Shown here piece by piece: positions 14,379 to 64,000 of a DNA stretch of 64,000 bases. A program made the translations under genes and the position numbers. The stretch is from the NCBI GenBank assembly GCA_016213945.1, contig JACQZF010000077.1, positions 1-64,000 on the forward strand, given 5' to 3'. The notes beneath the pieces are model-generated. The model was not told the DNA's origin, searched no databases, and saw only the letters and a program-made list of their open reading frames with translations. Source of the DNA: Nitrospirota bacterium. Its GTDB lineage: Bacteria; Nitrospirota; Thermodesulfovibrionia; UBA6902. Every line of letters starts with the position of its first letter. The stretch's first letter is position 1.

Positions 14379-14384
14379 ATCTTA

Positions 14385-14492: not shown

Positions 14493-14602
14493 TAATCGCT
14501 TTGCTTAAAATTGGAGTAACAAGTTTGAGTTATAAGCTCATAAACTAAACTTAAACTCTTCTTCTAAATTCGGTTCTGAATAATATTGAAGGGGTCAGCA
14601 AA

Positions 14603-15955: not shown

Positions 15956-15960
15956 GAAGC

Positions 15961-16040: not shown

Positions 16041-16056
16041 AAAGAGGAAAATAGAA

Positions 16057-17073: not shown

Positions 17074-17684
17074 CACCAAAAGAGATAGTAAAGATAGCGA
17101 TCAATCTCGTTGTAATATACGTTCTCGGAGGACTGCTGCTTGCGTTTGTCTACGCAAAGACCTCTCCCATCATGTTTATCAAGGCGAAGGAAGAAAAGGA
17201 AGCGGCCCTCAAGACAATGATGCCCGATGCGGACAAAATAGAAGAGATAGGCAAGTGGGAGCCGCATCACAAACACGCCGGTTATTATGTCGCCAAAAAA
17301 GACAATGAGGATATCGGTTACATCGTTGAAAGTTTTGGCAAGGGGTATTCAAGTTATATAAACATGCTCGTTGCTGTTGATAAAAATTTTACTGTCAAAA
17401 AAATAAATATCCTGCATCATGCTGAAACCCCCGGATTGGGCGATGAGATTGAAAAGGATTATTTCCTCAGCAGGTTTGCTGGAAAGACCGTTGACACTCT
17501 CGTAGTCATAAAAGGAGATACCGCGGACAAGGTCGAGGCGATCTCCGGGGCCACTATTTCAAGCCGCGCGGTGACCGAGGACGGCGTCAGGAACGGCGTA
17601 AAGATGCTGACGGAAAAGCTCTCAGGCGGCGGAGAAGAAAAGAAGGAAGAACAGGGAAAGGAGCAGGAACATGGCTCACACTGA
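17070..17684 (+). CDS. rnfG: Rnf complex subunit G
   Basis: Single-pass membrane subunit with an FMN-binding domain facing the periplasm. One N-terminal membrane helix (residues 8-28) is followed by the FMN-binding fold; HHAETPGLGDEI near 117 and SGATISSRAVTEDGV near 160 are diagnostic, with Thr in SGAT as the flavinylation residue. The Lys/Glu-rich tail (EEKKEEQGKEQEHGSH) is typical filler. Start overlaps the rnfD stop and the end overlaps rnfE by 14 bases, so translation is coupled. Confidence 0.95.
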   Translation: MTPKEIVKIAINLVVIYVLGGLLLAFVYAKTSPIMFIKAKEEKEAALKTMMPDADKIEEIGKWEPHHKHAGYYVAKKDNEDIGYIVESFGKGYSSYINMLVAVDKNFTVKKINILHHAETPGLGDEIEKDYFLSRFAGKTVDTLVVIKGDTADKVEAISGATISSRAVTEDGVRNGVKMLTEKLSGGGEEKKEEQGKEQEHGSH

Positions 17685-46442: not shown

Positions 46443-46458
46443 AGGTTTACGTTTTAAC

Positions 46459-46487
46459 GCAGGGGCGGGTTTAAAACCCGCCCCTGC
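46459..46487. repeat. GC palindrome centred on TTTAAA
   Basis: GCAGGGGCGGGTTTA and AAACCCGCCCCTGC, 14-bp arms, in the kinase-regulator spacer. The most complete member of this family here. Confidence 0.7.
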
Positions 46488-46528
46488 ATGTTGCTATCAT
46501 TTCAATTCTTACATAAAATAAACACATC

Positions 46529-48005: not shown

Positions 48006-48022
48006 TTGGCACAGATATTGCA
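48006..48022 (+). promoter_or_regulatory. Sigma-54 promoter
   Basis: TTGGCACAGATATTGCA matches the consensus TGGCAC-N5-TTGCA at every invariant position, with GG and GC correctly 12 bases apart. Start of transcription is expected near 48034, leaving a 54-base leader. It directly follows the NtrC-family gene. Confidence 0.85.
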
Positions 48023-48087
48023 AATTTAATGGCATCTAACGGCTTAGCCTTAGCCCAAATGAAACCTTAATGAAAGGAGAATTTTGT

Positions 48088-48960
48088 ATGAAAAGAAGTA
48101 CCGTAATTGTGTTGTTGGCTGCACTGTTGATCGTATCTTTAGTTTCTCTCGCTGCGGCGGAAGGACTGCTTGACGAGGTAAAGAAAAGAGGCGCTGTACG
48201 CATTGGTCATGGTAACGCAACCCCGCCGATGAACTATATTGATGAAAAAGGCGAGTGGACGGGTTTTGACGTGGACCTCGGAAGCGCAATCGCTGAGAAA
48301 TTAGGAGTGAAAATTGAAAGGGTGTTAGTTGATAATAAGACGAGGATCGCTTTTCTTGCCAACAGATCAATCGACATTTCACTGGCAAACATAAGCCAGA
48401 CCAGGAGCCGCGAGGAGCAGATGGATTATGCGGAACCTCCTTATTTCTGGACCGGCAAGATCTTTTATGCAAAGAAGGGAAAATTCAAATCAGTAAAAGA
48501 CCTTGGTGGAAAGAAGTTAGGTGTTGACCAGGGATCAAACGCATTTATCGCTGCTCCGCAGGAAATTGCTAAATATACAGACGCGAAACCTGAGATGCTT
48601 TCCTTCCAGAACAGCGCTGAGGGTTTTCTCGCATTAAAGCAGGGCAAGATTGACGCATACTCACAGGACGCCCAGATCATGGCGTCCATTGCTGCAGCAG
48701 GCGGTTTGGCTGACGAATACGAAGCAGTCGGCGGGGCCATCTGGAGCCCCGGACTTTACGGCATAGGCGTCCCTGAAAACGAAAGCGACTGGAGAGATAA
48801 GATAAGCTTTATTCTGCAGGACATGCTTAAGGACGGGACCTATGAGAAGATTTATCAGAAATGGTTCGGCCCCAAGGGCAAATCCCCTCTCTCGGTAAAT
48901 GCAAGACCGCGTTTACCCAAAGATACATTTGGCGACATGCTTTATGTATGGCCTGATTGA
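48088..48960 (+). CDS. Amino-acid-type ABC substrate-binding protein (family 3)
   Basis: A 290-residue exported protein. The signal (VIVLLAALLIVSLVSLAAA) is followed by the SBP_bac_3 fold: VRIGHGNATPPMNYIDEKGE, GFDVDLGSAIAEKLGVKIE, ANISQTRSREEQMDYAEPPY and KSVKDLGGKKLGVDQGSNAF. Polar amino acids are the usual ligands. Transporter genes are not found downstream; a terminator follows. AAAGGAGAATTTTGT decides this ATG over one six codons earlier. Expression depends on sigma-54, so nitrogen or a related signal is likely. Confidence 0.88.
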   Translation: MKRSTVIVLLAALLIVSLVSLAAAEGLLDEVKKRGAVRIGHGNATPPMNYIDEKGEWTGFDVDLGSAIAEKLGVKIERVLVDNKTRIAFLANRSIDISLANISQTRSREEQMDYAEPPYFWTGKIFYAKKGKFKSVKDLGGKKLGVDQGSNAFIAAPQEIAKYTDAKPEMLSFQNSAEGFLALKQGKIDAYSQDAQIMASIAAAGGLADEYEAVGGAIWSPGLYGIGVPENESDWRDKISFILQDMLKDGTYEKIYQKWFGPKGKSPLSVNARPRLPKDTFGDMLYVWPD

Positions 48961-49072: not shown

Positions 49073-49969
49073 ATGAAGAAAATTGTCTTTGTTATCATCC
49101 TGATAATTTTCCCTTGTCTTTTTCTGTTTGCAGAGGAAAAAGAAAAAAACGGCAATAACGGCGTTACAAAAACAACGGATATTCATTTTACAGGAAAATA
49201 TTGCACGGAGTGCCACGACAAGACGCCTCAGCAAGGCGGCGATACTTTCCTGAAATTTGGCGGCGATTACACGCAACTGTGCAAATGCCACGGGTATACC
49301 CCGGGCACATATATTCATCCTGTAGAAATAATCCCCTCGGAAGAAAAAAAGGCCAAGATCCCAAAAGACTTTCCCCTGCCGGGCGGCAAGGTGTCCTGCC
49401 TTACATGCCATGACATGTATCTGCAATGCCAGCTTAATCCCCGCGCCCTGTCATTAAACAAGAGATTTTTAAGGGGGGCCCCTTATGTAAGCCGCACCAT
49501 GCTATGCTTCAGGTGCCATGACGAGAAAAAATACACGATGCTGGACCCGCATAATCAAATAAATGAGGCAGGGGCCATTATCGTTGATAAATGCTTATAC
49601 TGCCATACTGAAAAACCCGATGAAAAACGCGCGACCTTCCAGGAAGTCAAGCTTATAGGGGACCTTGAGGTGCTGTGTTTCAGATGCCACTTCAAACAGA
49701 GCCAGCTTCATCCCATAAACGCCAACCACCTGCGCACACCATCCGACAAGACACTGATGACCATGAAGGAATCGGAAAAGAAATACGGGATAATTTTGCC
49801 GTTGAATTATGAAGGGAAAATCACCTGTCCAACCTGCCACAACCCCCATGAAAAAGGTATCATCCCCGGGGAAAAACCGAGCTCACAGGGGGCCAGCGAG
49901 AAGTACAGGCTTCGTCTTGCCGGGAGGAATTTGCAAATCTGCGTAGCGTGTCACAAAGATAAGTTCTGA
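49073..49969 (+). CDS. Multiheme c-type cytochrome, seven CXXCH sites plus one CXCH
   Basis: A 298-residue exported cytochrome (signal VFVIILIIFPCLFLFA). Canonical sites are CTECH, CLTCH, CFRCH, CLYCH, CFRCH, CPTCH and CVACH. Between the first two lies LCKCHGY, a C-x-C-H motif that could be a lost or unusual heme site. Several further His residues could be distal ligands. It is convergent with the four-gene cytochrome group on the minus strand, only six bases from the 9-heme gene, and is likely part of the same electron route. Confidence 0.85.
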   Translation: MKKIVFVIILIIFPCLFLFAEEKEKNGNNGVTKTTDIHFTGKYCTECHDKTPQQGGDTFLKFGGDYTQLCKCHGYTPGTYIHPVEIIPSEEKKAKIPKDFPLPGGKVSCLTCHDMYLQCQLNPRALSLNKRFLRGAPYVSRTMLCFRCHDEKKYTMLDPHNQINEAGAIIVDKCLYCHTEKPDEKRATFQEVKLIGDLEVLCFRCHFKQSQLHPINANHLRTPSDKTLMTMKESEKKYGIILPLNYEGKITCPTCHNPHEKGIIPGEKPSSQGASEKYRLRLAGRNLQICVACHKDKF

Positions 49970-49975
49970 TCTGTA

Positions 49976-51685
49976 TTAAGGATCGCAGCTACTGCCGCAG
50001 TTGGATGAATTATGTTTACTGCTGCACGCACTATTCGTTGAATAACAATTGGATTCTGCATATGTAGTTGGACTGGAGGCTTTTTTAAACCCGCTCAACA
50101 AAAGCCTGTTATCGGAATAATCATAGGGTGACACATCAGAAACATAGCCTATGAGTCTTGACCTTTTTGAGCCATGAGGTACAGCTACATGACAATACAC
50201 ACAGGACATCTCGTTGTCGGGGCCTAATGTTCTGTTATCATGATCTTTATGGACATCATTTTTCCATGTTGTACCGGTAATCATTGGGTGACAATTTACA
50301 CAGAACAGTTCGGTTGACCAGTTATTAGTATTATCGTTTATATCCTTTAAGCTGAACAGCGCACCGGCAGCACTTGCAGGCCAGTATTGTCTTGTCCTGT
50401 TGAGCATAAATTTTCTCGTTGACCCGTGAGGGCCTTTTGCTGCCGAGCTTTCGTTGTCTGCCCCGTGACAGTCGGAGCAGTACATGGTTTGTGTTCCTAC
50501 GCTTGTCCAGGGGGAAGACATTTGACCCGCAGTTAATGCCTTAGGAGTGCCGGAGCCGGTCTGGTTATTTAATGTTACAGCCACTGGATGGGCGGATTTG
50601 TTGTTTGGATTGAATTCCCAGGCCTGGTCGGTAATCGCAGTGCCGGATGGGCCGGTAATCGATGAGACCCCGTTTGTTAATGTGCCGAGTCCGTAATAGG
50701 AGTGGCATTTGAAACATATCTGGTATTCATACTGGCTGCCGTCATTATATGCAGGCGGTTTCCTGACGGTGAATGATGTCGGCTGGGTCCAGATCGCGGT
50801 CCATGCCGGTTCAACGCCCCAAACGTACTTCAATACATCAGACACCGCGTTCCCGGACGTTGCGGCAGTATGAATAGTTCCGCTGACTACTGTATGCGGG
50901 TTGTGGCAGTCAACGCATTCGGCATGTCTGTTGGCTGCCGCCGGGCCGAAGCTTGTTCCTCCCGGTTGTCCGGTTTCAGGCAGTGTATGGCGGTTATTAT
51001 AAGTATGCGTTGGATGGGCGTAGGTTTTATTTAACTGTGCTTTTACGTCTTTTGCCGCGCCGCCTTGCGTTCCGTTATGACATGCCTCGCATCCCATTTC
51101 ATAAGCGGGACTATCTCCTGTAGCCGAGTCCAGAGCAAAGAGCATCGACGCATACGGAGCGCCGCCTGCGGTTGCGTTATATCCATGGGGATTGTGGCAA
51201 TTATGACAATTACCCGCGTCGCCGCTTGGATATGCGGGACCCGGAGGCGAAGCATCGGGGGTCCATTTCATGCTGGCGCTTGAGTAGTGTATTGAGGCAT
51301 TATATTTTGTCTTCCCCTGATAAATACCGTAGCTTCCATAACCGAGGGTCATGCCTGATAAGGTAAATGTCTCATGACAGGCAAAGCAGAGTTCATTTCT
51401 GCTGGCCCCGTAATTAGACCTGAACAAGGCATACGATGAAGCCCCCTCAGAAGCAGGAAGGGTCGGCTCAGCTCCGTCGATGCTTGCGTGTTGTTCATGG
51501 CAGTGCCCGCAATGCCCCAGAGTAGTGTATGTATAGCCGGGGGTGACTACCGAGCGGTTGGCAGATGTGCCGTGCTTTGTCTGGATGTATGTCCCGCCGA
51601 AACCTTCGGCAGTTAGAAGGAAGCAAAGAGCGAAAAGCATAGAACATAGAGCATAGGGCACAGGGCGTATGGGACCTCTTCGCAT
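49976..51685 (-). CDS. Nonaheme c-type cytochrome with repeat-derived signal peptide
   Basis: Nine CXXCH sites: CGHCH, CFACH, CHNCH, CEACH, CVDCH, CFKCH, CSDCH, CVNCH and CVYCH, spread over about 570 residues with long Ser/Thr/Gly-rich loops; secreted or periplasmic. The signal peptide PYALCSMLFALCFLL is encoded by a low-complexity tract (51618-51675, AGCATAGAACATAGAGCATA). The start is uncertain: the frame is open back to 51790, overlapping the upstream gene by 22 bases; the ATG before RRGPIRPV gives the best signal length. Ends SSNCGSSCDP, a Cys pair. Confidence 0.82.
   Translation of the reverse strand: MRRGPIRPVPYALCSMLFALCFLLTAEGFGGTYIQTKHGTSANRSVVTPGYTYTTLGHCGHCHEQHASIDGAEPTLPASEGASSYALFRSNYGASRNELCFACHETFTLSGMTLGYGSYGIYQGKTKYNASIHYSSASMKWTPDASPPGPAYPSGDAGNCHNCHNPHGYNATAGGAPYASMLFALDSATGDSPAYEMGCEACHNGTQGGAAKDVKAQLNKTYAHPTHTYNNRHTLPETGQPGGTSFGPAAANRHAECVDCHNPHTVVSGTIHTAATSGNAVSDVLKYVWGVEPAWTAIWTQPTSFTVRKPPAYNDGSQYEYQICFKCHSYYGLGTLTNGVSSITGPSGTAITDQAWEFNPNNKSAHPVAVTLNNQTGSGTPKALTAGQMSSPWTSVGTQTMYCSDCHGADNESSAAKGPHGSTRKFMLNRTRQYWPASAAGALFSLKDINDNTNNWSTELFCVNCHPMITGTTWKNDVHKDHDNRTLGPDNEMSCVYCHVAVPHGSKRSRLIGYVSDVSPYDYSDNRLLLSGFKKASSPTTYAESNCYSTNSACSSKHNSSNCGSSCDP
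51618..51675. repeat. Low-complexity AGCATAGAACATAG tract inside a cytochrome gene
   Basis: GCAAAGAGCGAAAAGCATAG then AACATAGAGCATAGGGCACA and GGGCGTATGGG. Read on the minus strand it gives the hydrophobic signal peptide of the 9-heme cytochrome. Confidence 0.65.
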
Positions 51686-51768
51686 AAACTTTTCGCATAT
51701 ATGCAAGTTCTCAACTCCTGGCATCGTTCTTTCTTTTTTTCTCTCTGCGACAGGCTCTTTTTTCATAG

Positions 51769-52851
51769 TTAATTTTTGCTCGTGTGACAAACATTACAGC
51801 CGGATATGGCTGTTGAAAGTGTCGCGCTTTTAAAGTTCCATCTTAACATCTTGTAATTATCCGTAGCATGGGCTGCATGACAGGACAAACACATGACAAC
51901 GTCAGTACCGGGAGTTACGGTGTTACTGATAGAGCTGGCGACCGTAGTTCTCGCAACTGGAGTCACTACACTGTAGGATGCATAACTTGCATATTCACCG
52001 CTGTTCGGTAACACCACATCGGTAGGGTGCCTGGTAAATGGAGAGCTTGTATCTCCTCCAATCCCGTCAGCTACGTGCAGCTCTCTATGACAAGTGCCGC
52101 AAAACCCGCTGATCGTGTTATTGACAGGTTGTACTCCGTCCGGGGTGTGACAGATACTGCAGTTGCTGCTGTAAGTCATGGGAGTTGCTGCGCCGTAGTA
52201 TTCATTGTGATTGTTCGCATCCTTGTTCTGCCACTTATATGTACCGTTATTTTCATATCCTTTTACGCCTTTCAGGAAGCGGTAGCTGTCGTAGATATCA
52301 CTTGCGGTATCGCACCTGCCATCTACATTCTTGTGGTGGGCGCCTTTAAAGTGGACACCGGATGAACGTGTGCCATGACAGCCGAATATCCCCGAGCACG
52401 TGATACTGACCCCTATAACCATAGGATCGTGATGTCCGGGCGGGCCAAGGAGTGTGCCCTCTAACTTGCCGAATTCAACAACATTATGCCCTTTGTAATC
52501 AGCGGCCCCGCTGCCCTTGTTCCCCAATATATAGGCAAAGTTCCCGCCTGCAAGATCATCCGAGGCGCCTGTGTGATAGACCTGCGGCGCCCCTGTTACC
52601 GCGTCAATGTTGCTTGACGTTCCCGATGCATGGCATCCCAGACAACCTCCCCGGGTCAATGTCTCGTAAGGCCCGGTGCCTTTCCAGGGCTGGCCGTCAG
52701 CGCCGTACGTTGCCATTGCCGAGCCGTTCTGGCTGTTGTGCATGGTATGACATGTGCTGCAATTGCCGCTTATTGCGGAAGTTGCTACACCTGCATAAAG
52801 CGGGACGAATAAGACCGTAAAAAAAGCGGATATATATTTTATTAATTTCAT
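51769..52851 (-). CDS. Multiheme c-type cytochrome, six CXXCH sites plus one CX5CH
   Basis: A 360-residue exported cytochrome (signal [17 protein letters not shown]). Canonical sites: CSTCH, CLGCH, CSICH, CGTCH, CLSCH, CNVCH. A seventh candidate is CSGIFGCH, with five residues between the cysteines, followed by a His-rich stretch ([11 protein letters not shown]) that could supply axial ligands. Expanded heme motifs exist in a few multiheme proteins, but five residues is rare. Overlaps the next gene frame and is probably co-transcribed with it. Confidence 0.83.
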
Positions 52852-52971
52852 CAGCTTACAACAAAGTCCTTTATATAAAATAAATCATCTGCATATTTTG
52901 CAATTACTATGCCAAATATTTTTGAATACGGTCAAGAAAATAGGCAGATAGTCTTTAGTTTTCTACAACCG

Positions 52972-54273
52972 TCACATTTTATGACACTGTACGCAGAGCG
53001 CCCTGTTTCTGTCTGCAGTGAGCAGAAACTCGGCCATGGCAGAATGCATACTATGACACGAAGTGCAGGTAACAGGCTTTCCATTGCGGGGGTCTATCAC
53101 AGTGGCGCCGATCGGATGGGTGATCTTATGCTGAGATTCGTGGCACCTGGCGCACATCAGGTCTTCAGCATCTCTGTAATTGAACGGCCTGTCGGAGTGC
53201 ATCGGTATGTGACATTCAAAGCATTTTCTGTCTCTGACAGGCGCACATCTCACCGTCTTTAAAGCCTTCTCCATGGATGCAGTCCTTTTCTCCGTGCTTT
53301 CATGACAACCGTTACAAATTTTCTTTTCGTTCTTTGTAAGGTTTTTCTTTCTTGACCCGTGATAGTCATGGCAAATATTGCAGGGATTCTTGACGTTCTT
53401 TACATGAACGTCATTGTCGATATATTTATATTTTGAATCTTCTTTTTTGTGACAGCTGAAACACAGGGCCTGGCCTTCCAGCCGGGTGGTGATCTTCGCA
53501 TTCGCGGTAATTGGATTATGGCACTTTTCGCAATTCCTGATCAAGAAATCAGTATGGCCGTAAGGGCCGGGAAGCCCCTTGGTCCTTGAGCTGTGCCCCG
53601 TGTGGCAAGATGTGCAATCCGAATCTTTCACCATAGTTGATATGGAAACCTCACCCGCCCTGCAACGCGGAGGATGGCATTTCTGGCACAGCTTGTTAGA
53701 TGAAGAAAGCAGCAGGCCCTCTTCAGTTGACGCGTGAGAATTATGACACTCTGAGCATTTCCCCTCCTTGAACGGAACACAGGCATGGGGTTTTTCAAAT
53801 TGCTCCTTCAGTTTCTCATGGCAATTTCTACAAAGCGTTTTTTCCTCTCCTATCAAAATATAATTGTATTCGCTGCTGTGGGCGTTATGGCATCCGGTGC
53901 ATGAACTTTCCTTGAGCGCGGGGTGCACAATGCCTTTGCGGATAAGGTCCCTGAGGTTTTCATGACAGCTCAGGCAAATGGAATTTATGTCGTCATTCAT
54001 CAATCCCTTGATAGTGCTTACGTGTGAATTGTGGCAGGTAATGCATTTTCCGTCTTTAAAAAGAAAGTGCACATACTTTGCCGACAGGTCCTTTTTCAGC
54101 TCTTTATGACAGTCGTAACACAGGTCGGGGATATTTGCTTTTAACTTTGCCTCGGCATCAACTTCTCCCACATTGACTGCTGAAAGCCAGATAAGCATAA
54201 GACAGATGGACAGGAGAGCGAAATAAAAGTTTTGTATTGCCTTTATCGACTTCTGACTTCTGCTCCTATTCAT
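52972..54273 (-). CDS. 16-heme c-type cytochrome (doubled-CXXCH family)
   Basis: Sixteen CXXCH sites in 433 residues, from CYDCHKELK to CVQCHKM, which is three residues from the end. Many occur as the paired pattern CxxCH...H..H with CHNSHAS/CHNAHSS-type followers, as in doubled-CXXCH domains. The signal helix is NFYFALLSICLMLIWLSA. The codons just after the start (RSRSQKS) come from a CAGAAGTCAGAAGTC tract. Its start overlaps the stop of the 26-heme gene by eight bases, so the two are made together, probably as parts of one electron conduit. Confidence 0.88.
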   Translation of the reverse strand: MNRSRSQKSIKAIQNFYFALLSICLMLIWLSAVNVGEVDAEAKLKANIPDLCYDCHKELKKDLSAKYVHFLFKDGKCITCHNSHVSTIKGLMNDDINSICLSCHENLRDLIRKGIVHPALKESSCTGCHNAHSSEYNYILIGEEKTLCRNCHEKLKEQFEKPHACVPFKEGKCSECHNSHASTEEGLLLSSSNKLCQKCHPPRCRAGEVSISTMVKDSDCTSCHTGHSSRTKGLPGPYGHTDFLIRNCEKCHNPITANAKITTRLEGQALCFSCHKKEDSKYKYIDNDVHVKNVKNPCNICHDYHGSRKKNLTKNEKKICNGCHESTEKRTASMEKALKTVRCAPVRDRKCFECHIPMHSDRPFNYRDAEDLMCARCHESQHKITHPIGATVIDPRNGKPVTCTSCHSMHSAMAEFLLTADRNRALCVQCHKM

Positions 54274-56233
54274 GACATGCCTCGCAGCGTCCCTCGGTAA
54301 AAGGTGTATGCATGATATTTTTAAGCAGCCCGGGTTTTTCCGTCACATGGGGCTGATGACAGGTTGTGCAGTGATCGATTTTATTTACAGTTTGTCTGTG
54401 CGCCTTCATCAGCCTTTCCGTATCAACTGCATGACACTTGGTGCACAGCGCGGGGTCTTTTCCGCTGAGCAGGTTTTTTATTTCAGAATAGTGTGAGGTA
54501 TGACAGCTTAAACAATCCCCGCCTTCCATTGATATATGTCCCTTCCTGATCTTTGTAGTGACTATTCTCTCGTGGCATGAGAGGCAAAGTTCGTTTGGCC
54601 TGTCAAGGAGCTGGAACCTGAGCTTTGTCCCGTGGGGGCTGTGGCATGATGTGCACTTGCCTTCTTCCACAGGGAGATGTTTGTGGCTGCCGGCTTTTAC
54701 TTTGGACTCCATGTTTTTATGACATTCGTAGCAAAGTTCCTTTTGAGATTTTACGGTCGACGCGATGAAATCACTCGCGTGAGGGGCGTGGCAGGCCTTA
54801 CAGTTTTTGTCCCTGAACAACGGGTGCGTGCCTTCCGGTTTAATGTCGGTGTACATATTGTTGTGACATGTTATACACAACTGTTCATAGGGAGTATTCA
54901 ACAGTCCCGCGTAAGGCGAGGTATGGGCCTTATGGCAGGCGCCGCATTGTCTTTTTGCTACAGGCGTATGAACGTAGGCCTTGAGGTACTTGTTCTTGTC
55001 ATGACACGTGTAACATGATTCAGTCAGGGGCAACTTTAACATGACAAAGTTATTGGAGCCGTGTGAATCGTGACACTTTGCGCACTCAACTTTAGAAAAC
55101 GGCTCATGCCTGTATGGGTCCTGCAGATCTTTCTCGACTTGCGGGTGACAGGAAAAGCATATCTGTTTCTCAGACGCGATCAGGTAAAAGCGGTTTGCAG
55201 AGGCGTGCGGATTGTGACAGGCGATGCAGCCCTGTTCTTTTATCGGCTTATGCAAATAACTAACGTCGATCTTCGGTTTATCTTTGTGACAGCTTATGCA
55301 AAGCTCTTTATTTTTCATAAGTGTGATCCTGGGATAATCAGTGGCATGAGGGTCATGACAGGTCAGACACTTTCCCTGGTCCGTCAGCGGATGCCTGTAC
55401 GCCGCGCTATATTTCTTCTCTTCCTTTGTGTGGCAGGTATAACAGAGCTTTCCGTCGGATGCGATTGTCTTCAACGCGTCCGGGCCGGTTGCCGGTTTGT
55501 GGCAGGAGGAGCACTGTCCGAGTGTTAACGGCTCATGAACGGACTCCCTCAGCAATTTGTCATTTGTAGAGCTGTGAGCGGCATGACAGCCTGAGCATTT
55601 TGACTGTTCCACCGGATAGTCCTTATGCGCGGATGCAAAGGGGGGAACTTTATAATCATGGCAGGAGCGGCAAAGCTCGCTTTCTTCTTTAACGAGGTTA
55701 TATTTATACGGAGAGGCATGTGCGCTATGGCAGTTAAGGCATCCGTCATCAAGGGGTTTGTGACGGGTGGCGCGCATAAAAGGACTTTTATCGTGGCATG
55801 AAAAGCATTGCTTGTTTCCTGTTTTTACCTGGAGGGCTTTATTGTCTGATGCGTGAGGATTATGACATGGAATGCATTTGCCCTGTTTCAGGACTGTGTG
55901 GACATTGGCCGTCTTTTCCATATCAGCCGCCATCTGTTTATGGCAAATGTAGCAAAGCTTGTTTTCCTCACTTTCCACAAAAGACTTGACCGCGAGTTTG
56001 CCGTGGCGCAGATGACAGGCTTCACAATCATTGCCTGCCATCGGCGCGTGCACGAATTTCTTAGTGAAGTCGCCCTGTTTTTCCTGGTGACAATCCATGC
56101 AGGGTTTGGGGGCGAAGCCTTTCTTCACCTTTTGTTCAGGCGCGCATGTGATGAGGGCGGCGAGTATGAAAAACAACAGGATGAGTTTCAAGGAATGTTT
56201 TTTAGTGTTTAAAATGTCTCTGCTAATATACAC
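54266..56233 (-). CDS. 26-heme c-type cytochrome lipoprotein
   Basis: I count 26 CXXCH sites in 655 residues, one per 25 residues, from CMDCHQEK to CEACHE at the very end. The signal helix LKLILLFFILAALITC ends in a lipobox (Cys30), so it is probably outer-membrane anchored. Repeat units of about 50 residues alternate CHNPHAS-type and CHKxM/CHDK-type sites, each of the first kind followed by a second His, typical of doubled-CXXCH cytochromes. Roughly all hemes could be bis-His. No catalytic motif is visible, which suggests a conductive role. Overlaps the 16-heme gene. Confidence 0.9.
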   Translation of the reverse strand: MYISRDILNTKKHSLKLILLFFILAALITCAPEQKVKKGFAPKPCMDCHQEKQGDFTKKFVHAPMAGNDCEACHLRHGKLAVKSFVESEENKLCYICHKQMAADMEKTANVHTVLKQGKCIPCHNPHASDNKALQVKTGNKQCFSCHDKSPFMRATRHKPLDDGCLNCHSAHASPYKYNLVKEESELCRSCHDYKVPPFASAHKDYPVEQSKCSGCHAAHSSTNDKLLRESVHEPLTLGQCSSCHKPATGPDALKTIASDGKLCYTCHTKEEKKYSAAYRHPLTDQGKCLTCHDPHATDYPRITLMKNKELCISCHKDKPKIDVSYLHKPIKEQGCIACHNPHASANRFYLIASEKQICFSCHPQVEKDLQDPYRHEPFSKVECAKCHDSHGSNNFVMLKLPLTESCYTCHDKNKYLKAYVHTPVAKRQCGACHKAHTSPYAGLLNTPYEQLCITCHNNMYTDIKPEGTHPLFRDKNCKACHAPHASDFIASTVKSQKELCYECHKNMESKVKAGSHKHLPVEEGKCTSCHSPHGTKLRFQLLDRPNELCLSCHERIVTTKIRKGHISMEGGDCLSCHTSHYSEIKNLLSGKDPALCTKCHAVDTERLMKAHRQTVNKIDHCTTCHQPHVTEKPGLLKNIMHTPFTEGRCEACHE

Positions 56234-56251
56234 CTGAAAATACTCCGTTAA

Positions 56252-56389
56252 GTGTCATGCTGAACTTGTCTCAGCATTCTTTTTTTCTTGTATCTTGCAC
56301 AGAGTTCCTTATTTTGTCATTCTGGCATGTCCAGAATCTTTTTGTGATCTCAAAAAGTCAGAAAGATTCCCGACAAGCGGGAATGACAA
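56252..56389. repeat. Composite GTCATGC / GTCATTC palindromic element
   Basis: GTGTCATGCTGAACTTGTCT with CAGCA, then TTTGTCATTCTGGCATGTCC and the closing arm GATTCCCGACAAGCGGGAAT then GACAAC. It separates the parvulin gene from the 26-heme gene. Confidence 0.7.
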
Positions 56390-56425
56390 CAAAATAGCTA
56401 CTCATCTTTCAGATACCGTTTAAGC

Positions 56426-58156
56426 TTACTTGCCAAACATTTTTTTAAACGACTGCACGGCATCTTCATTTATTGTTATCTGAGCGTCTTTTTTCAGTTT
56501 GGCTAAGTATTCATCATAAAGCTTCTTGAACTTTTCCGTAAAAACTTTTCTCTGGATAACAGGTTTTACATTGTTGAACTCTACGAACTCCTTTGCGGTC
56601 TTTTCCTGCAATCTGAAAATATTAAAATTAGAATCCACCTCAACTACCGGACTGATATCGCCCGGATTCAGAGTATCAATGATACTTTTTATCTCAGCAG
56701 GCAACTGCTCTTTAACAAGCAAGTCCGTTGTCCCGCCGGCTGATGCATTGGGACCTATTGATTTAGTCTTTGCCAGCCATGAAAAATCAGCGCCGTTTTT
56801 CAGGCTTTTTAAAATGTCCTCAGCCTCTTCCCTTGTCTTTACGGTAATCTGCTGCAGCTTATATCTGAACGGGCTTGCAAAGTCTTCTTTATGGGCTGAG
56901 TAGTATGCCGTCATCTCCTGGTCCGAGATCTTTATTTGCGGCACAAGCATTTTATTTATGAAGGCGTCCTTGAGTATCTGGTTTTTGTAACGCTGCAGCA
57001 TGTCCTTCAGGTCTGAATATAATTCGTAATGATGGCCCAGGGCCTCAACGTCCACCAGTTTCCGGTCGATCCAGCGGTTAAGGACCGGCTCTTTAATGTT
57101 CTCGTCGCTTGATGAAAGCATTGCCACAAAGTCCTTTACCTTGAGAGTCATACTGTCAATCTCGACCAGGGGACTTTCATCCCTGGCCCATTTCTCCCTC
57201 TCCTCGTTTCCGCCTTTTAAATTAATGGAAGAAAGCAGCTCATTATTGATCTTCGGCTTCAGCTTTTCGCGCAGGCCTCTCAGATATTCGTTGCTGCGGT
57301 CTTTTGCCTTCTGTGATTTAAGCTGAGCGGCAATGCTTCCCCTGACCTTTTCAAGTCCTTCCTCCGGGGCCTCCTGCCGGTTTATTAATTTTACGATGTA
57401 GTATTTGTCTCCGCTTTGTTTGATGCCGCTTAAATCTCCGGGGGTCAGGCCTGAGGCGGCCTCTTCAAAAAAAGACCCCATGGATTTCCGCTGGAGCGGC
57501 ATCTCTCCGCCGTCTTTCTTTGAAACATGGGTGGAATACTCCAATGCAAGCTTTTTGAAATCTGCCCCCTTTTTCAGTTTTTCCAGAATTTTTTGCGCGT
57601 CTTTTTCAGAGCTGAGCTCTATTATGCCGAGTGTGAACTCTTCGTTGTTCTTTTTGTAGTGATCCACAATGTCCGCTTCGCTGACGTTTATCTTTTTTTC
57701 AATTTCCTCGTTATAAAGCTTTACAACCGATTCCCTCAGAATATATGCCTCGATTTTATTCTGCACCTCCGGGTATTTTTCCACCCCCGCGCGCTTCGCC
57801 TCAATTGCAATCAACCTGTCGTCAACAAGCTTCTGCACATATTGGGTAATATCGATCCCTTTAGCGGAAGAGAGGTCCTCTCTCCGGTGGGCTATCTCGA
57901 GTGAATATTCAAGGTCCCCTTTCGTGATCGGCTCGCCCTCCACAATTGCCAGCACATCAGCCTTTTTTTCTTTTTTAGGGACGGAGGCGCAACTCCACAA
58001 TGACAGAAGACAGAACACAGTAGACAGAACACAGATGACAGATGACAGAACACAGAGGGGAAAATATTCACAGCTATCTGTCTTCTGACTTCTGACTTCT
58101 GGGGTCTTTTCCGTAAGGGACTGACGACTGTTGAATGAGGCCTGTCTTATTGCCAT
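56426..58156 (-). CDS. Parvulin-type peptidyl-prolyl isomerase lipoprotein with two rotamase domains
   Basis: A 576-residue SurA/PrsA-like foldase. The lipobox LSLWSC (Cys56) follows an unusually long leader whose hydrophobic part (PLCVLSSVICVLSTVFCLLS) is encoded by low-complexity repeats. The chaperone-like N region is followed by rotamase domain 1 (about 170-260: ADFKKLALEYSTHVSKKDGG) and domain 2 (about 430-520: ADFSWLAKTKSIGPNASAGG). It overlaps the upstream gene by ten bases. In extracellular-cytochrome clusters such isomerases probably help fold exported cytochromes; here it lies between the cytochromes and the barrel. Confidence 0.87.
   Translation of the reverse strand: MAIRQASFNSRQSLTEKTPEVRSQKTDSCEYFPLCVLSSVICVLSTVFCLLSLWSCASVPKKEKKADVLAIVEGEPITKGDLEYSLEIAHRREDLSSAKGIDITQYVQKLVDDRLIAIEAKRAGVEKYPEVQNKIEAYILRESVVKLYNEEIEKKINVSEADIVDHYKKNNEEFTLGIIELSSEKDAQKILEKLKKGADFKKLALEYSTHVSKKDGGEMPLQRKSMGSFFEEAASGLTPGDLSGIKQSGDKYYIVKLINRQEAPEEGLEKVRGSIAAQLKSQKAKDRSNEYLRGLREKLKPKINNELLSSINLKGGNEEREKWARDESPLVEIDSMTLKVKDFVAMLSSSDENIKEPVLNRWIDRKLVDVEALGHHYELYSDLKDMLQRYKNQILKDAFINKMLVPQIKISDQEMTAYYSAHKEDFASPFRYKLQQITVKTREEAEDILKSLKNGADFSWLAKTKSIGPNASAGGTTDLLVKEQLPAEIKSIIDTLNPGDISPVVEVDSNFNIFRLQEKTAKEFVEFNNVKPVIQRKVFTEKFKKLYDEYLAKLKKDAQITINEDAVQSFKKMFGK
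57995..58112. repeat. Low-complexity ACAGAACACAG / CTTCTGACTTCTG tract inside the parvulin gene
   Basis: AATGACAGAAGACAGAACAC and ACAGATGACAGATGACAGAA, then TGTCTTCTGACTTCTGACTT on the other side. Read on the minus strand it makes the leader and signal helix of the lipoprotein. Confidence 0.7.
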
Positions 58157-59928
58157 TTAGCTGTCTTCATTTTTCTTACCAGCTCCAAAACTGATTTGTA
58201 AGCCACCCTGTCGACCGGTTTCTTTTCTGCCCACTCAAAGGCGATTATGTCTTTTTCACCAGTTGATTGCTGCGTATTATACCACAGAATTTTGTTCTTT
58301 CGTGCGTCCAAAAGCCTGGCCGTCATGGTCACTTTCGGAGGGGAAGATGCATCTGTGCTTTCGTTGAACTGCTCCACTGCACCGAGCAATATCCCTCCCG
58401 CGCCCGAACGTTTTGACAAGGCCTCCATGGTTTTATAATCCATCTCGCTCTTGTCCCTTATTCTCAACTCCACGACTATCTTTCTGACATCACCGTATTC
58501 CACCGGCTCGAAAATCTCATTCTTGAAAAGCTCCACCAGAAACATATACATGGCAATAACGCCTGCGCTTTTGTGTTTGCTTCTGTTTTGAAACGGCATC
58601 ACCGCAATCCTGTACAAGGTCTCCGGGTCTTTTTGAGGCGGAGAGGTATTAAAAGAGGCAAGCAGGATATCAACAGCCCTTGAAGTAAGGTCCTCAATGT
58701 TATTTATTCTGCCGAGACCGAGGATGGTGGTGAAATCGTCACTGGTGACAGATGCATAATTTGCCCAGATTATAAGCCCCGTGGAAGGGTCAATCAGTCT
58801 TGCCAAAAGACTGATCTGAGGATTTTCGCCTGAGGAGTATGAAATAATTGCGCCCGCCATTATTGCGTTTGTCGACAATTCCTTTTCTATTTTTTGCGCC
58901 ATCTCTTTAGAAATATGCCCCGTGGCCCTTACCCTTTCATTGCATAAAAATCTGTTAAGGTTGTTTTCATCAACAATCCCCAGGCCTTTCTTTTCCAGCC
59001 GCGACCTCAGCAGTGGTGTTACCTGGGTCAAGGCGTCCTTGCTGTCAGTGAAATTTTCAAACGGCAGGAGGGCTATTTTTTTTTGGGTCCCAGCGTGTTC
59101 TTTTTCCTCAGACGAAAGTTTATAACTTTCTTTCTGAGAAATTATAACCGGCGCTGCTGCCTGGGTTAAAGGCTCAGGGGTTATTTTTACAGGCGGAACA
59201 GTAGCAGCTTTCGGCGCCACAATTGCAGCTTCAGGCAAGCTCACTGCTGGAATTACACCTGGTTCTCCATCTGGTTTTTGGACGTCTGCTTTTGGTAATG
59301 TGTCAGTTATTTCTTTTTGAGGTTCCTGCTCCCCGGGCTTCTTCGCTTCTTCTTTGAGTTGGGCAACTACAGTCTCTTTTTTTATCTCTGGAGAAGGCCT
59401 TGCGGTAATCTCAGTTTTTGGCGACTCAACAGGTTTCATGGGTTCTTCTTTAAGAGGTTCAATTTTTTGAGGCGCTACAATAGGTCTCTCTTTTTTATCT
59501 TCATGAGGAGGCTTCTTTGTTTCTCCCTTTGGCGTCGCGACCTTCGCCTCTTTTACAATCTCCTGCGAAGGCTTTTTCAAACGCTTTCCCGGTTTTTTCT
59601 TTGAATGTTTAGCACGTGTTCCTTTTTTAATCTTGCCGTTAGTTTTTTTTGCAAGCAGGGTTTTTTGTTTCTCCGCGGGTTTTCTGGCTTCTTTTACGGA
59701 TGGAGCTGCCTTTGTTTGCGTCCCGGCTTTTTTCGGAAGTGTTTCTTTAGTTAACTGTTCTGGTTTTTCTTCAGACTTCTTAACCTTTTCATTTGGCAGC
59801 GGAACTGCCTTTTCTTTTTTAACCACCAGAGACGGCGCAATTTTGGCTTCTTTCTTGAAATAAATAAAATAGGACAAAGCCGAGAAAGCAAAAAGCAGCA
59901 GGATAAGGACAAGGATTTTATTCTTCAT
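58147..59928 (-). CDS. Membrane-anchored protein with tandem CsgG/TolB-N-like domains
   Basis: A 593-residue protein. One N-terminal helix (ILVLILLLFAFSALSYFIYF), then a 230-residue Lys/Pro/Glu-rich spacer (KKTNGKIKKGTRAKHSKKKP), long enough to cross the periplasm as in TonB-like linkers, and two copies of a CsgG-like alpha/beta domain: KIALLPFENFTDSKDALTQV to ARLIDPSTGLIIWANYASV and IAVMPFQNRSKHKSAGVIAM to ARLLDARKNKILWYNTQQS. The adjacent two lipoproteins have the same domain. Likely spans the envelope and helps a secretion or assembly channel; exact role unknown. Confidence 0.72.
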   Translation of the reverse strand: MKNKILVLILLLFAFSALSYFIYFKKEAKIAPSLVVKKEKAVPLPNEKVKKSEEKPEQLTKETLPKKAGTQTKAAPSVKEARKPAEKQKTLLAKKTNGKIKKGTRAKHSKKKPGKRLKKPSQEIVKEAKVATPKGETKKPPHEDKKERPIVAPQKIEPLKEEPMKPVESPKTEITARPSPEIKKETVVAQLKEEAKKPGEQEPQKEITDTLPKADVQKPDGEPGVIPAVSLPEAAIVAPKAATVPPVKITPEPLTQAAAPVIISQKESYKLSSEEKEHAGTQKKIALLPFENFTDSKDALTQVTPLLRSRLEKKGLGIVDENNLNRFLCNERVRATGHISKEMAQKIEKELSTNAIMAGAIISYSSGENPQISLLARLIDPSTGLIIWANYASVTSDDFTTILGLGRINNIEDLTSRAVDILLASFNTSPPQKDPETLYRIAVMPFQNRSKHKSAGVIAMYMFLVELFKNEIFEPVEYGDVRKIVVELRIRDKSEMDYKTMEALSKRSGAGGILLGAVEQFNESTDASSPPKVTMTARLLDARKNKILWYNTQQSTGEKDIIAFEWAEKKPVDRVAYKSVLELVRKMKTAKWQ

Positions 59929-59935
59929 TTGTATT

Positions 59936-60514
59936 TTACTTGGCCAGCGTCCGGATAGCTTCTCTTACGGCAGTCAAAACAGTTTCGCTCATGGTTTCCG
60001 ACCTGGCCCCGAAATGCCTCGCCATAAAACCCGCACCGCCGCGGGTTGTTGTAATGGACCAGATGATATTGCCTGTGCCGGCATCCGCCATCATTAATGT
60101 AATGGTTACTTCCGGGGCGGAAATATTCCCTGACCTTGACTCCCCGTATTGTTCGACCGAGCCCATAATAAGCGCCTCAACCTTAAGGGCCTTGCCGAGC
60201 GCCTTTATCTGTTTTTCACTCAGGGATGAGATGTTCTTGATATCCAGTTCGCTGACTGCGGCCATTACTTCCCCGGGCACCACAACGTCCACAAGTCCCG
60301 AAGAAAGCAATTCACTTATGACCACCTGCCTGACAACCTCCCCCGCTGTTCTATCATTGCTCAGATTATCAAGGGGCATCACGGCAACCTTCTTAAAGTA
60401 ACTGAAATCGATATCTTCACGGATATGATAGACCGGGGCCTTGCCGCCACACCCTGAAGTAAAGAGAAAAATAAGTAAAGCAGAAACCGGGACAATTTTC
60501 ATAAATGAATTCAT
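59936..60514 (-). CDS. GNA1162/CsgG-like lipoprotein, copy 2
   Basis: A 192-residue lipoprotein (lipobox FLFTSGC). The mature part reads VAVMPLDNLSNDRTAGEVVR, EALIMGSVEQYGESRSG, ITLMMADAGTGNIIWSITTT and ends in GARSETMSETVLTAVREAIR. This is the same fold as the paralogue at 60531 (about 35-40 percent alike by eye) and as the two domains of the downstream protein. GNA1162 and CsgG relatives sit at the outer membrane; a secretion or assembly role is inferred. Confidence 0.75.
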   Translation of the reverse strand: MNSFMKIVPVSALLIFLFTSGCGGKAPVYHIREDIDFSYFKKVAVMPLDNLSNDRTAGEVVRQVVISELLSSGLVDVVVPGEVMAAVSELDIKNISSLSEKQIKALGKALKVEALIMGSVEQYGESRSGNISAPEVTITLMMADAGTGNIIWSITTTRGGAGFMARHFGARSETMSETVLTAVREAIRTLAK

Positions 60515-60530
60515 GGTGCGTCTCCTTTTT

Positions 60531-61109
60531 TTAAAATAATGTATCGATCGCTTCTTTTATTACTTTTTTTGAAGTTTCGTCAAGCGTAGATCCCTCTGCC
60601 CCAAAGTGCCTGGTCCAGAAGCTTGCGCCCCCCGCGGTATGCCACACCGACCAGATGATTTTCCCTGTCTTTGCGTCAAACAGGATTAAATTGACAGAGA
60701 CCTCGGGGTAAGAAACCGATATTCCCCTGCTTATGCCAAACGCTTCAACGGCCCCCGTCATAACGGATTCTACATTGAGGGCTTCGCCAATATTCTTAAT
60801 ATCCTGCTGGGTCAGGGATTGGGCGGATTTCACCTTCATCTCCTGCAGGATTTTTAATACCTCTCCGGGTTCTATGACATCAACGCCTCTTGACATAAGG
60901 TCCATAATTACAACGCTTCTGACCTTATCGTCAGCGAATGTGTCAGGCGTAAAATTCTCAAACGGCAGCACCGCAATCTTTTTAATTTTGGCCGCGTCGG
61001 TATTAGGCCTGACATAATGCTTTATGCCGTTTGAACATCCCGACATGAAAATCAGACAAAGGCTTATAACCATGCCGGAGAAGATATCTTTTCTTGTGAG
61101 GATGTTCAT
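60531..61109 (-). CDS. GNA1162/CsgG-like lipoprotein, copy 1
   Basis: A 192-residue lipoprotein (lipobox IFMSGC) equal in length to its neighbour. Blocks: KIAVLPFENFTPDTFADDKV, VIEPGEVLKILQEMKVKSAQ, NVESVMTGAVEAFGISRGIS, LILFDAKTGKIIWSVWHTAG and FWTRHFGAEGSTLDETSKKV. It arose by tandem duplication with the copy at 59936. Lies 39 bases after the outer-membrane barrel gene in the same transcript. Confidence 0.75.
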   Translation of the reverse strand: MNILTRKDIFSGMVISLCLIFMSGCSNGIKHYVRPNTDAAKIKKIAVLPFENFTPDTFADDKVRSVVIMDLMSRGVDVIEPGEVLKILQEMKVKSAQSLTQQDIKNIGEALNVESVMTGAVEAFGISRGISVSYPEVSVNLILFDAKTGKIIWSVWHTAGGASFWTRHFGAEGSTLDETSKKVIKEAIDTLF

Positions 61110-61148
61110 AACAATATATAATACCTCGAAAAAACCCCGCTTATTATA

Positions 61149-63410
61149 TCAGAATCTTATATTTAAATTTGCGTTGAAATTGTAATTTTCCGTTTTAATA
61201 TCCTCTATGGTTTTTGTGTAACCGGTTGAAATACGGATATCGGCAAACTTTGTTATATACCAGATGCCGTAGCCATTGATGCTGTCGGTTTTTGATGTCT
61301 TAGGGTCAGTATTGCTGTGGAGGTAATTCATATTTAATCTGATCGCGGGAAGCGGCAGCCAATCCACTGACAATCCTTCCGAGGTGGTCTTGCTTTCATC
61401 AGATCCAAAATAATTCACATTGCCGGAAATGTTTATGGACCGTCCGGGCTGATAGTTAATAATAATCAGGGCATTTTTTGAGTCGGTAGTGGTGTCGTCT
61501 GATGAAATCCTGCTCAGATTATAATTAAGAGTGCTGGATACCTGCTGTGTAATGCGCGCGTCAACAGTGCCGTTTATTGAGTAAGTGGAAGTTGTTGCAT
61601 TTGTCGAGACTGTATCGGTTTGGTTATACCCGAGATCGGTAATCATATTTACGTTTTTATAAAGCCTTGAACCTACGCTCAACAGATAAGAGTCGTTCGT
61701 GGAATCCTTTTTATCAAAGTTATATCTTATGGTTCTGGTATAAGACAGGGTGGTGTCGAGGGTCGGCAGCGGAACGGAATTAAAAGAAATGTTGTAAGAG
61801 TCAAAATCAGTATCGGTTTCTTCCCGGCTGTCGAAGTTCTGGCTTTTTTGATAGCGTGCGATGGTAGTTAGATACCGGTGCGTCAACCACGTGGCCCCCA
61901 TGCCGTAGTTTCTTGAGATAGTGCTCCTGAAATTACTTTTATTATCAGGCAGGGAATCGCTGAAGATGTTTTCAAAAACTCCGCTGAGAGAATTTGTAAG
62001 AGACACGGGATTTTGATCCGACCTGTCGAGAGAGTAATTAAGAGAAACGGTCAATTGTGTAAAAGGTCTCGCGCTGGCGGCAAAATTCAGACCCTGCTCA
62101 AAGGTGTTGAATATATCGAGAGAGGTTTTCGATCCGATGTTGTCTGTGCCGTACGCCTCTATCTCGGTCACCAGCACACTGGCGATATTGGAAGTCACGT
62201 TATTGACCGCTTTATAAAATGAGTCACTCTGCGGCTCTAAAAATTCTATCTCGAAGATGTATATATTATTAGGCCTGTCGTAAACAGTCACTTTTGCATC
62301 TTTAACATTTACCGCGGACCATGTCCCGTCCTGATTGAAGTTGCTTTTAAAAACACTCCAGTTGCCAGCATTGTCCAGGCTGTCTCCGGTCGGGTCTGTA
62401 ATTGACGATACATATATAAATAACCTGTCCACTGTCTTTTGCGACGACACCGAAATCCCGGTATTGTGAAACCTGTTGGTTGGATTTGCGCTCCCGATAT
62501 CAATGCCTGCGCTTGTCTTAAAGTCCTCATCGACCAACAGGCCGTTAGCGTTTAACGTCCCGAGGTCCTGCGTTACGCCGTCATGTTTATGCCATCCGCC
62601 CAGCGACGTCCGCTTGGTTGTTACGGTGCCGGTCTGCTTAAAGGTCTGGCGGCTTTTGTTCCTTGAATAATTGCCCTGATACAGCAGGGAGTAAGTTGCC
62701 GTGTCTCTCAACAACGCCCCTGTGTAGCCGATGTTGTAGTTGCCGCTGAAATTATCATTTACTGTTTTCTCTATTATGTTTGCCTTGTCCCTGTCTATGT
62801 TATGAGAGTAATTTAAAATATATCTGAACCTTACATCGCGCGAAGGCAGTTCATACGTTGAGCTTATGGCATATTCATCATTGGTGCGGTCAATTTTGCT
62901 GACGCTGAGGTAGTCGAAATCCCTCAGCCTGTCTACATTGATAGACAGGGAAGGGAGTGAAGCGGGGACTAAATTAAAGCGTGAATAATACAGTTCGGTA
63001 GTCTCCCTGCTTTCATCCCGCAGGTGCGCGGTGGTCCACTCTTCCTGCCTGCGGTATCCTGCGGTAAGGTCGTACACGGGGTTCTGCAGCAGGAGGTCCA
63101 GTGTCGGCTCCACCATCCTCTTGTAAGTGGTTGTTGTTTCATCTGCAGAGTCTGTGATGCGGGAATCGATCAGGTTTGATCTCAGATAGATATGATAAAC
63201 AAGCACTGGAGTGACCGGTTTTTCAAAATTCAAAAAATAATTCTGATTTAAGGTGCTGGAGTCCGAGGTCCTTTTCCCGTCCTGATACCCGCTTGAGTTG
63301 TCACTGATTATATTCAGCCATCCGCTCAGCCCCTGCGTAAATGCGGGAGTGCCGCACAGTAATATCACTGTTACTGACAGCGTTAGTATCTTCCATATTA
63401 TATTCCTCAT
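61149..63410 (-). CDS. Large outer-membrane beta-barrel protein
   Basis: A 753-residue exported protein (signal ILTLSVTVILLCGTPAF) made almost wholly of alternating polar/hydrophobic strands with aromatic ends (YDLTAGYRRQEEWTTAH, VRFRYILNYSHNIDRD, VSSTLNYNLSRISSDDTT) and ending in NFNANLNIRF, with the terminal Phe recognised by the Bam machinery. About 30 strands could fit. An insert at about 285-440 (KTVDRLFIYVSSITDPTGDS) looks like a separate soluble domain. No TonB box or plug. In this context it is a candidate porin for a porin-cytochrome conduit; sequence alone does not place it in the MtrB family. Confidence 0.75.
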   Translation of the reverse strand: MRNIIWKILTLSVTVILLCGTPAFTQGLSGWLNIISDNSSGYQDGKRTSDSSTLNQNYFLNFEKPVTPVLVYHIYLRSNLIDSRITDSADETTTTYKRMVEPTLDLLLQNPVYDLTAGYRRQEEWTTAHLRDESRETTELYYSRFNLVPASLPSLSINVDRLRDFDYLSVSKIDRTNDEYAISSTYELPSRDVRFRYILNYSHNIDRDKANIIEKTVNDNFSGNYNIGYTGALLRDTATYSLLYQGNYSRNKSRQTFKQTGTVTTKRTSLGGWHKHDGVTQDLGTLNANGLLVDEDFKTSAGIDIGSANPTNRFHNTGISVSSQKTVDRLFIYVSSITDPTGDSLDNAGNWSVFKSNFNQDGTWSAVNVKDAKVTVYDRPNNIYIFEIEFLEPQSDSFYKAVNNVTSNIASVLVTEIEAYGTDNIGSKTSLDIFNTFEQGLNFAASARPFTQLTVSLNYSLDRSDQNPVSLTNSLSGVFENIFSDSLPDNKSNFRSTISRNYGMGATWLTHRYLTTIARYQKSQNFDSREETDTDFDSYNISFNSVPLPTLDTTLSYTRTIRYNFDKKDSTNDSYLLSVGSRLYKNVNMITDLGYNQTDTVSTNATTSTYSINGTVDARITQQVSSTLNYNLSRISSDDTTTDSKNALIIINYQPGRSINISGNVNYFGSDESKTTSEGLSVDWLPLPAIRLNMNYLHSNTDPKTSKTDSINGYGIWYITKFADIRISTGYTKTIEDIKTENYNFNANLNIRF

Positions 63411-63416
63411 AATTTA

Positions 63417-63453
63417 TAAACTGTAAGCTAATAGCTGTCAGCTATCAGCTATT
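63417..63453. repeat. AGCTAATAGCTGTCAGCTATC low-complexity tract
   Basis: TAAGCTAATAGCTGTCAGCT and ATCAGCTATT; the beta-propeller stop codon lies in it. Confidence 0.55.
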
Positions 63454-64000
63454 TGGGAAACATCGCTATCCCGTAAGGCTTCATACCGGCGGGGATTACA
63501 CGCTCCTGCTTTCTTGTAGTCTTGTCGATTATCGAAATATTGTTAGACCCTCTGTTAACCACATATATTTTTCTGAGTTCTGAGTCCAGTATAAAAGAAC
63601 GCGGAGCGCTCCCTGCGGGAATAATTCCCATCACAGGGGGCATTACAGTCTGGGCCGCGCTGTCCGTAAAGGGCTTAATGATCATTATCTCGCCGGGCCT
63701 TTCTTTTAAAAGATAAATTCTGTCAAATGACGGTTCGGGTATCACCCCTGTTATGGAGGCGCCCAGATTATTGATAGTGCTTACCACCGTGGTTTTATTG
63801 CCTTTGATAATTTGCAGGATGTCTATGACTGAGAGTTTGTCGGAATTATAATTTGCAACATAGACTTTCCCTCTCTGATAATCGACGGCAAGCGCGATGG
63901 GGTTCCAATCCACGTTGACAGTAATAACATCTTTAGGTTTGCTTGTAAGCGAGTCCATCATTATTACTGAAACGCTGTTTGAATTTTGGTTAACAACATA
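63449..64000 (-). CDS. YVTN-type beta-propeller protein (C-terminal part)
   Basis: The gene is cut by the window end; the frame is open to the last base (it begins YVVNQNSNSVSVIMMDS), so no start is visible. Three or four blades are seen with the repeats GKVYVANYNSDKLSVIDI, DRIYLLKERPGEIMIIKPF and RKIYVVNRGSNNISIIDKTT. Such YVTN/NHL propellers are surface or periplasmic binding scaffolds and often accompany multiheme cytochromes. Ends GMKPYGIAMFPK. First visible gene of the minus-strand cluster. Confidence 0.85.
   Translation of the reverse strand, partial: YVVNQNSNSVSVIMMDSLTSKPKDVITVNVDWNPIALAVDYQRGKVYVANYNSDKLSVIDILQIIKGNKTTVVSTINNLGASITGVIPEPSFDRIYLLKERPGEIMIIKPFTDSAAQTVMPPVMGIIPAGSAPRSFILDSELRKIYVVNRGSNNISIIDKTTRKQERVIPAGMKPYGIAMFPK

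Follow-up and report, generated by a model that had tools for sequence, protein, structure and literature searches.

The systems closest to the locus reported here are gene clusters that accompany OmcS-type cytochromes. In Geobacter, the osc (omcS-companion) cluster is an eight-gene block, GSU2500-GSU2493, linked to maturation and secretion of the OmcS nanowire in PMC12977616, where Geobacter sp. H2geo is named as a carrier. The names oscC (GSU2501), oscI (GSU2495) and oscJ (GSU2494) come from PMC13194489; proposed roles are OmcS folding for OscH, secretion for OscE, OscF and OscG and nanowire morphology for OscD. A core of 26- and 16-haem cytochromes, peptidyl-prolyl isomerase (PPIase) and propeller was described in 2017 in SEEP-SRB1, and this homologous cluster of sulfate-reducing bacteria (SRB) was discussed for electron uptake (PMC5539420). 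Its barrel was named OetI in 2023, when an OetABI conduit was proposed (PMC10553843). Here we analyse bases 1-64000 of the 69,265-bp contig JACQZF010000077.1 from a Nitrospirota bacterium (assembly GCA_016213945.1; 3.5 Mb, 98% complete); these 64,000 nucleotides are referred to as the window. A cytochrome cluster at its end runs on to contig position 68785, which adds the remainder of a YVTN propeller, an NHL propeller and two further cytochromes.

We propose that this cluster is probably the Thermodesulfovibrionia (Nitrospirota) version of osc, alias Oet or the 26/16-haem cluster, with OmcS-family cytochromes as candidate filament subunits, a PPIase that would fold them and a barrel with a collar that would export them. 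Judged by their sequences, the osc and Oet of the literature are one homologous cluster. By profile, the eight genes of H2geo (L113) are propeller, barrel, lipoprotein, CsgG-like, PPIase, 26-haem, 16-haem and NHL propeller, and the order propeller, barrel, OscF, OscG, PPIase, 26-haem, 16-haem is the same in H2geo, Geotalea (L136) and Geomonas (L115). A preliminary description of the window had recognised a locus for extracellular electron transfer or cytochrome filament assembly, which is borne out by the co-conserved gene set described below. It had also considered the locus to be of a kind not matching OmcS sets; this is not so, as the gene order is that of the osc cluster known from Geobacter (PMC12977616, PMC13194489). 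The remaining osc letters are assigned to the genes below from gene order and are thus putative. In order of transcription, the cluster and the cytochrome gene that converges with it comprise:

Contig 67625-68785, minus strand: OmcS-family cytochrome, first in transcription order, beyond the window.
Contig 66331-67488, minus strand: OmcS-family cytochrome, second in transcription order, beyond the window.
Contig 65076-66095, minus strand: NHL propeller, third in transcription order, beyond the window.
Contig 63449-65122 (window part 63449-64000), minus strand: lipoprotein with DUF4382 and YVTN propeller, putative OscD counterpart.
61149-63410, minus strand: large outer-membrane beta-barrel of 753 aa with an inserted discoidin (F5/8 type C)-like domain, putative OscE / OetI counterpart.
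60531-61109, minus strand: PelC/GNA1162/LpoB-like lipoprotein of 192 aa, putative OscF counterpart, copy 1.
59936-60514, minus strand: PelC/GNA1162/LpoB-like lipoprotein of 192 aa, putative OscF counterpart, copy 2.
58147-59928, minus strand: protein with two PelC/GNA1162/CsgG-like domains, putative OscG counterpart.
56426-58156, minus strand: tandem parvulin PPIase, likely a lipoprotein, putative OscH counterpart, with two PPIase stretches by Pfam.
54266-56233, minus strand: 26-haem cytochrome with a lipoprotein-like signal, OscI (GSU2495) counterpart.
52972-54273, minus strand: 16-haem cytochrome, OscJ (GSU2494) counterpart.
52900-52914, minus strand: sigma-54-like site with one mismatch, before the third OmcS-family gene.
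51769-52851, minus strand: third OmcS-family (filament-type) cytochrome, with six CXXCH motifs and one CX5CH (CSGIFGCHG).
49976-51790, minus strand: 9-haem cytochrome, closing the cluster at its 3' end.
49073-49969, plus strand: 7-haem cytochrome, convergent with the operon.

Several elements of the preliminary description stand on recounting or closer inspection. The 64 CXXCH motifs it reported in five cytochromes are found again as 7 (49073), 9 (49976), 6 (51769), 16 (52972) and 26 (54266), while the same five proteins with their residues shuffled contain 0.6 on average and never more than 3. The two-domain parvulin is recovered by Pfam and the YVTN propeller is present, although the window end cuts the gene of the latter. 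Placing nearly all genes on one strand needs the correction that the 7-haem gene lies on the opposite one. This gene, with its seven CXXCH, adjoins the cluster in most relatives. The annotated TTG start of the 9-haem gene overlaps the neighbouring gene, and a later start is likely.

Conservation of the set was followed in 61 whole genomes, namely the host and 60 relatives, which are related, so that the counts are not independent. The barrel occurs in 26 of them and always belongs to one family. An OmcS-family cytochrome (profile E <1e-20) is present in 26/26 barrel genomes and in 2/35 without the barrel; for the 26-haem ortholog (at least 50% identity) the figures are 24/26 and 1/35, the exceptions being incomplete genomes (78-88%). 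Nearly all intact loci keep 26 and 16 CXXCH as well as the gene order, and in every well-covered clade the PPIase and PelC-like genes are kept between barrel and cytochromes. Scanning named genomes with a 26-haem alignment returned 80 loci in all, from Thermodesulfovibrionia/Nitrospirota and, at greater distance, from Desulfobacterota, Rokubacteria, Schekmanbacteria and others; the Desulfobacterota loci include SEEP-SRB1 C00003060 and C00003106, Geobacter sp. H2geo, Geotalea and Geomonas. The conservation in other genomes that the preliminary description asked about is thus found, with the same order in the three Geobacter-type loci. A scan of genome contigs with a single barrel sequence as query, where the 26-haem alignment did work, gave no matches. 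In the 26-haem tree the window falls within a Nitrospirota clade of 32 rows (100/100), apart from the Geobacter and SRB clades.

Some genomes depart from this picture. The family also has a divergent second osc-like locus, in L053 (G026:C91) at 8123-17353 and also in G001, G004, G005, G011, G015, G036 and G044. Its barrel has about 24% identity and its 26-haem-like proteins are of about 700 aa with 36-39% identity; in G004, G005 and G015 a second large cytochrome lies near the divergent 26-haem-like protein. In the single-contig genomes G023 (331362 and 1834592) and G033 (569192 and 499687) the cluster lies in two distant halves, propeller-barrel-OscF and OscG-to-16-haem, a split that may reflect rearrangement or assembly error. 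The host genome has dsrAB-like genes; dsrA was uninformative as a correlate, being near-universal among the relatives.

The three OmcS-family cytochromes of the cluster (360-386 aa) are the only full-length members of the family in the host genome. A single Nitrospirota cytochrome as query against the PDB found no relative and OmcS was reached by the family profile only, which matches OmcS (6ef8/6nef) at E 1.4e-19 over 315 positions; the Geotalea and Geobacter cluster counterparts match it at 1e-96 and 5e-98. OmcS haem sites 1, 2, 4, 5 and 6 are kept across 64 aligned members, and so are several further OmcS histidines. Site 3, CxSCHDPHG in OmcS, is replaced by C[AS]GxxGCHG, that is CX5CH, in 47/51 Nitrospirota/SRB-type proteins and in 0/13 of OmcS type. 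The change is accompanied by three new near-invariant histidines, His172, His173 and His215 in the window copy. The latter does not have six canonical CXXCH at the OmcS positions and also has an extra CXXCH, and a count of CXXCH alone misses the CX5CH of 51769-52851. The comparison of the haem-3 site covers the three genes of the cluster (51769-52851 in the window, 66331-67488 and 67625-68785 on the contig) and the OmcS-family set of L057-L136. Related proteins of the partners of anaerobic methanotrophic archaea (ANME) have been called pentahaem (PMC9539880), and a literature search for the exact spelling "CX5CH", this spelling only, found no mention.

The divergence of the Nitrospirota subunits, with their changed haem-3 site, would fit a cluster that exports and anchors non-polymerising multihaem cytochromes at the surface, as a coat or a partner-contact layer, and makes no nanowire. 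Geobacter genomes that have the cluster and lack true OmcS still have the OmcS-like GSU2501 type (PMC12977616), which fits this view as well. However, the five kept haem sites and further histidines argue against it, as does the presence of several subunit copies per genome, as in Geobacter. We regard a pure surface layer as unlikely.

The barrel prediction of the preliminary description was confirmed at 753 aa. Its AlphaFold2 model, built from 46 sequences, has a mean local confidence (pLDDT) of 89.6 and about 28 long strands as counted from DSSP, with an insert at about residues 261-425 that strand counting would place outside the cell. Some members of the barrel family match F5/8 type C, in L053 at residues 309-405. 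The Nitrospirota barrel profile aligns with the barrels of Geobacteraceae and related loci over 686 columns (hhalign probability 100, E 2e-70). Foldseek matches were mostly TonB-dependent receptors with template modelling (TM) scores of about 0.2-0.3; this is generic barrel similarity, and we rejected that identity. The barrel is not assigned to an unrelated transporter family and the cytochromes are co-conserved with it, so the outcome that the preliminary description named as refuting did not arise.

The barrel could instead be the porin sheath of an MtrCAB-like conduit made of barrel, 16-haem and 26-haem proteins, the small cytochromes being exported otherwise and only exchanging electrons with it. 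PMC10553843 puts forward such an OetABI conduit for the SRB homolog of the cluster. The OetI query came from the SEEP-SRB1 genome C00003106, where the sole barrel-family match is of this family (E 6e-145) and is presumably OetI. The profile of the OscI counterpart matches chain A of the Mtr complex (6r2q) at E 6e-24, and chain B (6r2q_B) has the best TM for the barrel among the Foldseek matches listed (0.36/0.40). The lipoprotein-like signal of the 26-haem cytochrome also speaks for a conduit. (The molecule name of 6r2q chain A is listed as cystathionine beta-synthase, apparently a labelling slip.) On the other hand, MtrB/PioB (PF11854) matches 0/46 barrels and was not found in the host genome, and the conserved PPIase and PelC-like proteins would be superfluous in a bare conduit. 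Moreover, the Geobacter papers give OscE-G to OmcS secretion; the CsgG-like proteins, which the preliminary description had put forward as a possible new part, already have a proposed role there. A conduit that takes no part in secretion seems doubtful to us, yet the secretion and conduit readings are compatible with each other.

The three genes between barrel and PPIase had been described as CsgG/GNA1162-like. Pfam does match them to CsgG, LpoB and GNA1162, but profile searches of the PDB put them nearer PelC and GNA1162 than CsgG. For OscF, PelC comes first (5t11 at 1.1e-8, 9h80 at 1.3e-8, 5t10), then GNA1162, then LpoB; for OscG, 5t11 at 3e-7 is followed by GNA1162. We take 5t10, 5t11 and 5t0z to be PelC structures, and 9h80 carries the PelC name in its entry. 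That the three lipoprotein-type proteins are themselves the outer-membrane channel, a CsgG-like pore, would agree with the Pfam CsgG match of the OscG counterpart (E 4e-7). Nevertheless, this match is partial, covering positions 10-107 of a 210-position model and not its full length with the membrane-hairpin region, and CsgG is absent from the PDB profile matches of OscF and OscG. In addition, OscF at 192 aa is about the size of LpoB or GNA1162 and a dedicated barrel gene adjoins. The pore was rejected on the partial match and the PDB searches, and we consider it very improbable. PelC forms a ring of twelve beneath the PelB barrel (PMC12141448). By analogy, OscE-F-G would be an exporter built of barrel and collar and not a CsgG pore.

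The OscG of the window carries a hydrophobic anchor, but no lipobox, at its N-terminus, and a linker of about 250 residues rich in K/P/E (62% P/E/K/Q/A), similar to that of TonB. Several relatives have the same anchor and linker, while a lipobox is usual in OscG of the Geobacter type. The total length of OscG is highly variable among relatives (335-798 aa).

Taken together, we suggest that the subunits would be exported by Sec and receive their haems in the periplasm, where the tandem PPIase (OscH) would help OmcS-type cytochromes to fold. The two OscF and the two-domain OscG could then form a periplasmic collar beneath OscE, as PelC does beneath PelB, guiding the subunit out. The propellers (OscD and NHL) may work at the base of the filament or influence its shape, and OscI and OscJ may be the electron path that joins the exported filament to the periplasmic pool. 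We infer polymerisation, collar formation, the path and direction of electrons and the same roles in the host organism from these relationships. Several points weigh against the proposal. The evidence from these organisms is genomic, and the roles of OscD-H are taken second-hand from two later papers (PMC12977616, PMC13194489). Proteins of OmcS type do not necessarily polymerise; the one shown to form a wire is OmcS itself (PMC12977616). For the filament-type cytochrome, the AlphaFold2 model has a pLDDT of 57 and no Foldseek match, and the barrel model resembles solved barrels loosely.

Control by sigma-54 was approached by counting perfect or one-mismatch sites at most 250 bp before a gene. 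They precede 16/53 filament-type genes, compared with 5/517 other cluster genes and 0/53 shuffled stretches. The raw number of the pattern in the window is near chance; the signal lies in the position of the sites. The host cluster has sites at 52900-52914 and at contig 68901-68915, both on the minus strand. Another lies among the genes flanking the cluster and is tied to the locus by position only:

48070-48960, plus strand: solute-binding protein gene.
48007-48021, plus strand: perfect sigma-54 (-24/-12) site, TGGCAC-N5-TTGC, 63 bp upstream of that gene.
46529-47932: NtrC-type response regulator.
45048-47932: stretch that encodes a histidine kinase and this regulator.

Our results add Thermodesulfovibrionia, a group of sediments and the subsurface with genomes mostly carrying dsrA, to the bacteria that have a complete gene set for OmcS-type nanowire assembly. 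The overall kind of locus is already known; what is new is the rewritten haem site, the OscF duplication, the linker-bearing OscG and the sigma-54-like sites before filament genes. It is tempting to speculate, though with less than even confidence, that OmcS proteins of the Nitrospirota and ANME-partner type bind the third haem via CX5CH, so that "pentahaem" proteins would be hexahaem wires with a rebuilt pocket, that export is PelBC-like and that many Nitrospirota have an OscG that crosses the periplasm from an inner-membrane anchor. The predictions that arise are a wire with a non-canonical haem site, a barrel seated on a PelC-like collar and filament genes controlled by sigma-54.

Compared with known systems, the locus shares with osc of G. 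sulfurreducens (GSU2493-GSU2504) the order of propeller, barrel, lipoprotein, CsgG/PelC-like, PPIase, 26-haem and 16-haem genes, with OmcS-family hexahaem-type genes adjoining. It differs in that OscF is duplicated, the NHL propeller lies upstream of OscD and not at the end, the Nitrospirota OscG often has no lipobox and carries the long K/P/E-rich linker, filament genes stand at both ends, additional 9-haem and 7-haem cytochromes are present, and haem site 3 has the form CX5CH in the OmcS homologs. With the OetABI cluster of ANME-partner sulfate reducers (PMC10553843) and the SEEP-SRB1 operon (PMC5539420) it shares a homologous barrel, the 26- and 16-haem cytochromes, PPIase, propeller and OmcS-like cytochromes, most of the SRB-type OmcS homologs also having the CX5CH site. 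In contrast, the Nitrospirota OscI forms a separate clade (support 100/100) and the OscF/OscG arrangement is different, SRB having two separate CsgG-like genes. MtrCAB and PioAB likewise combine a barrel with multihaem cytochromes, and OscI is similar to chain A of the Mtr complex, but the barrel has no MtrB/PioB family match and the gene set is another. Finally, the PelBC exopolysaccharide exporter (PMC12141448) also pairs an outer-membrane barrel with PelC-like lipoproteins, PelC being the closest solved relative of OscF and OscG; any kinship of the barrel to PelB is hypothetical, the ring is putative and the proposed cargo here is a haem protein instead of a polysaccharide.

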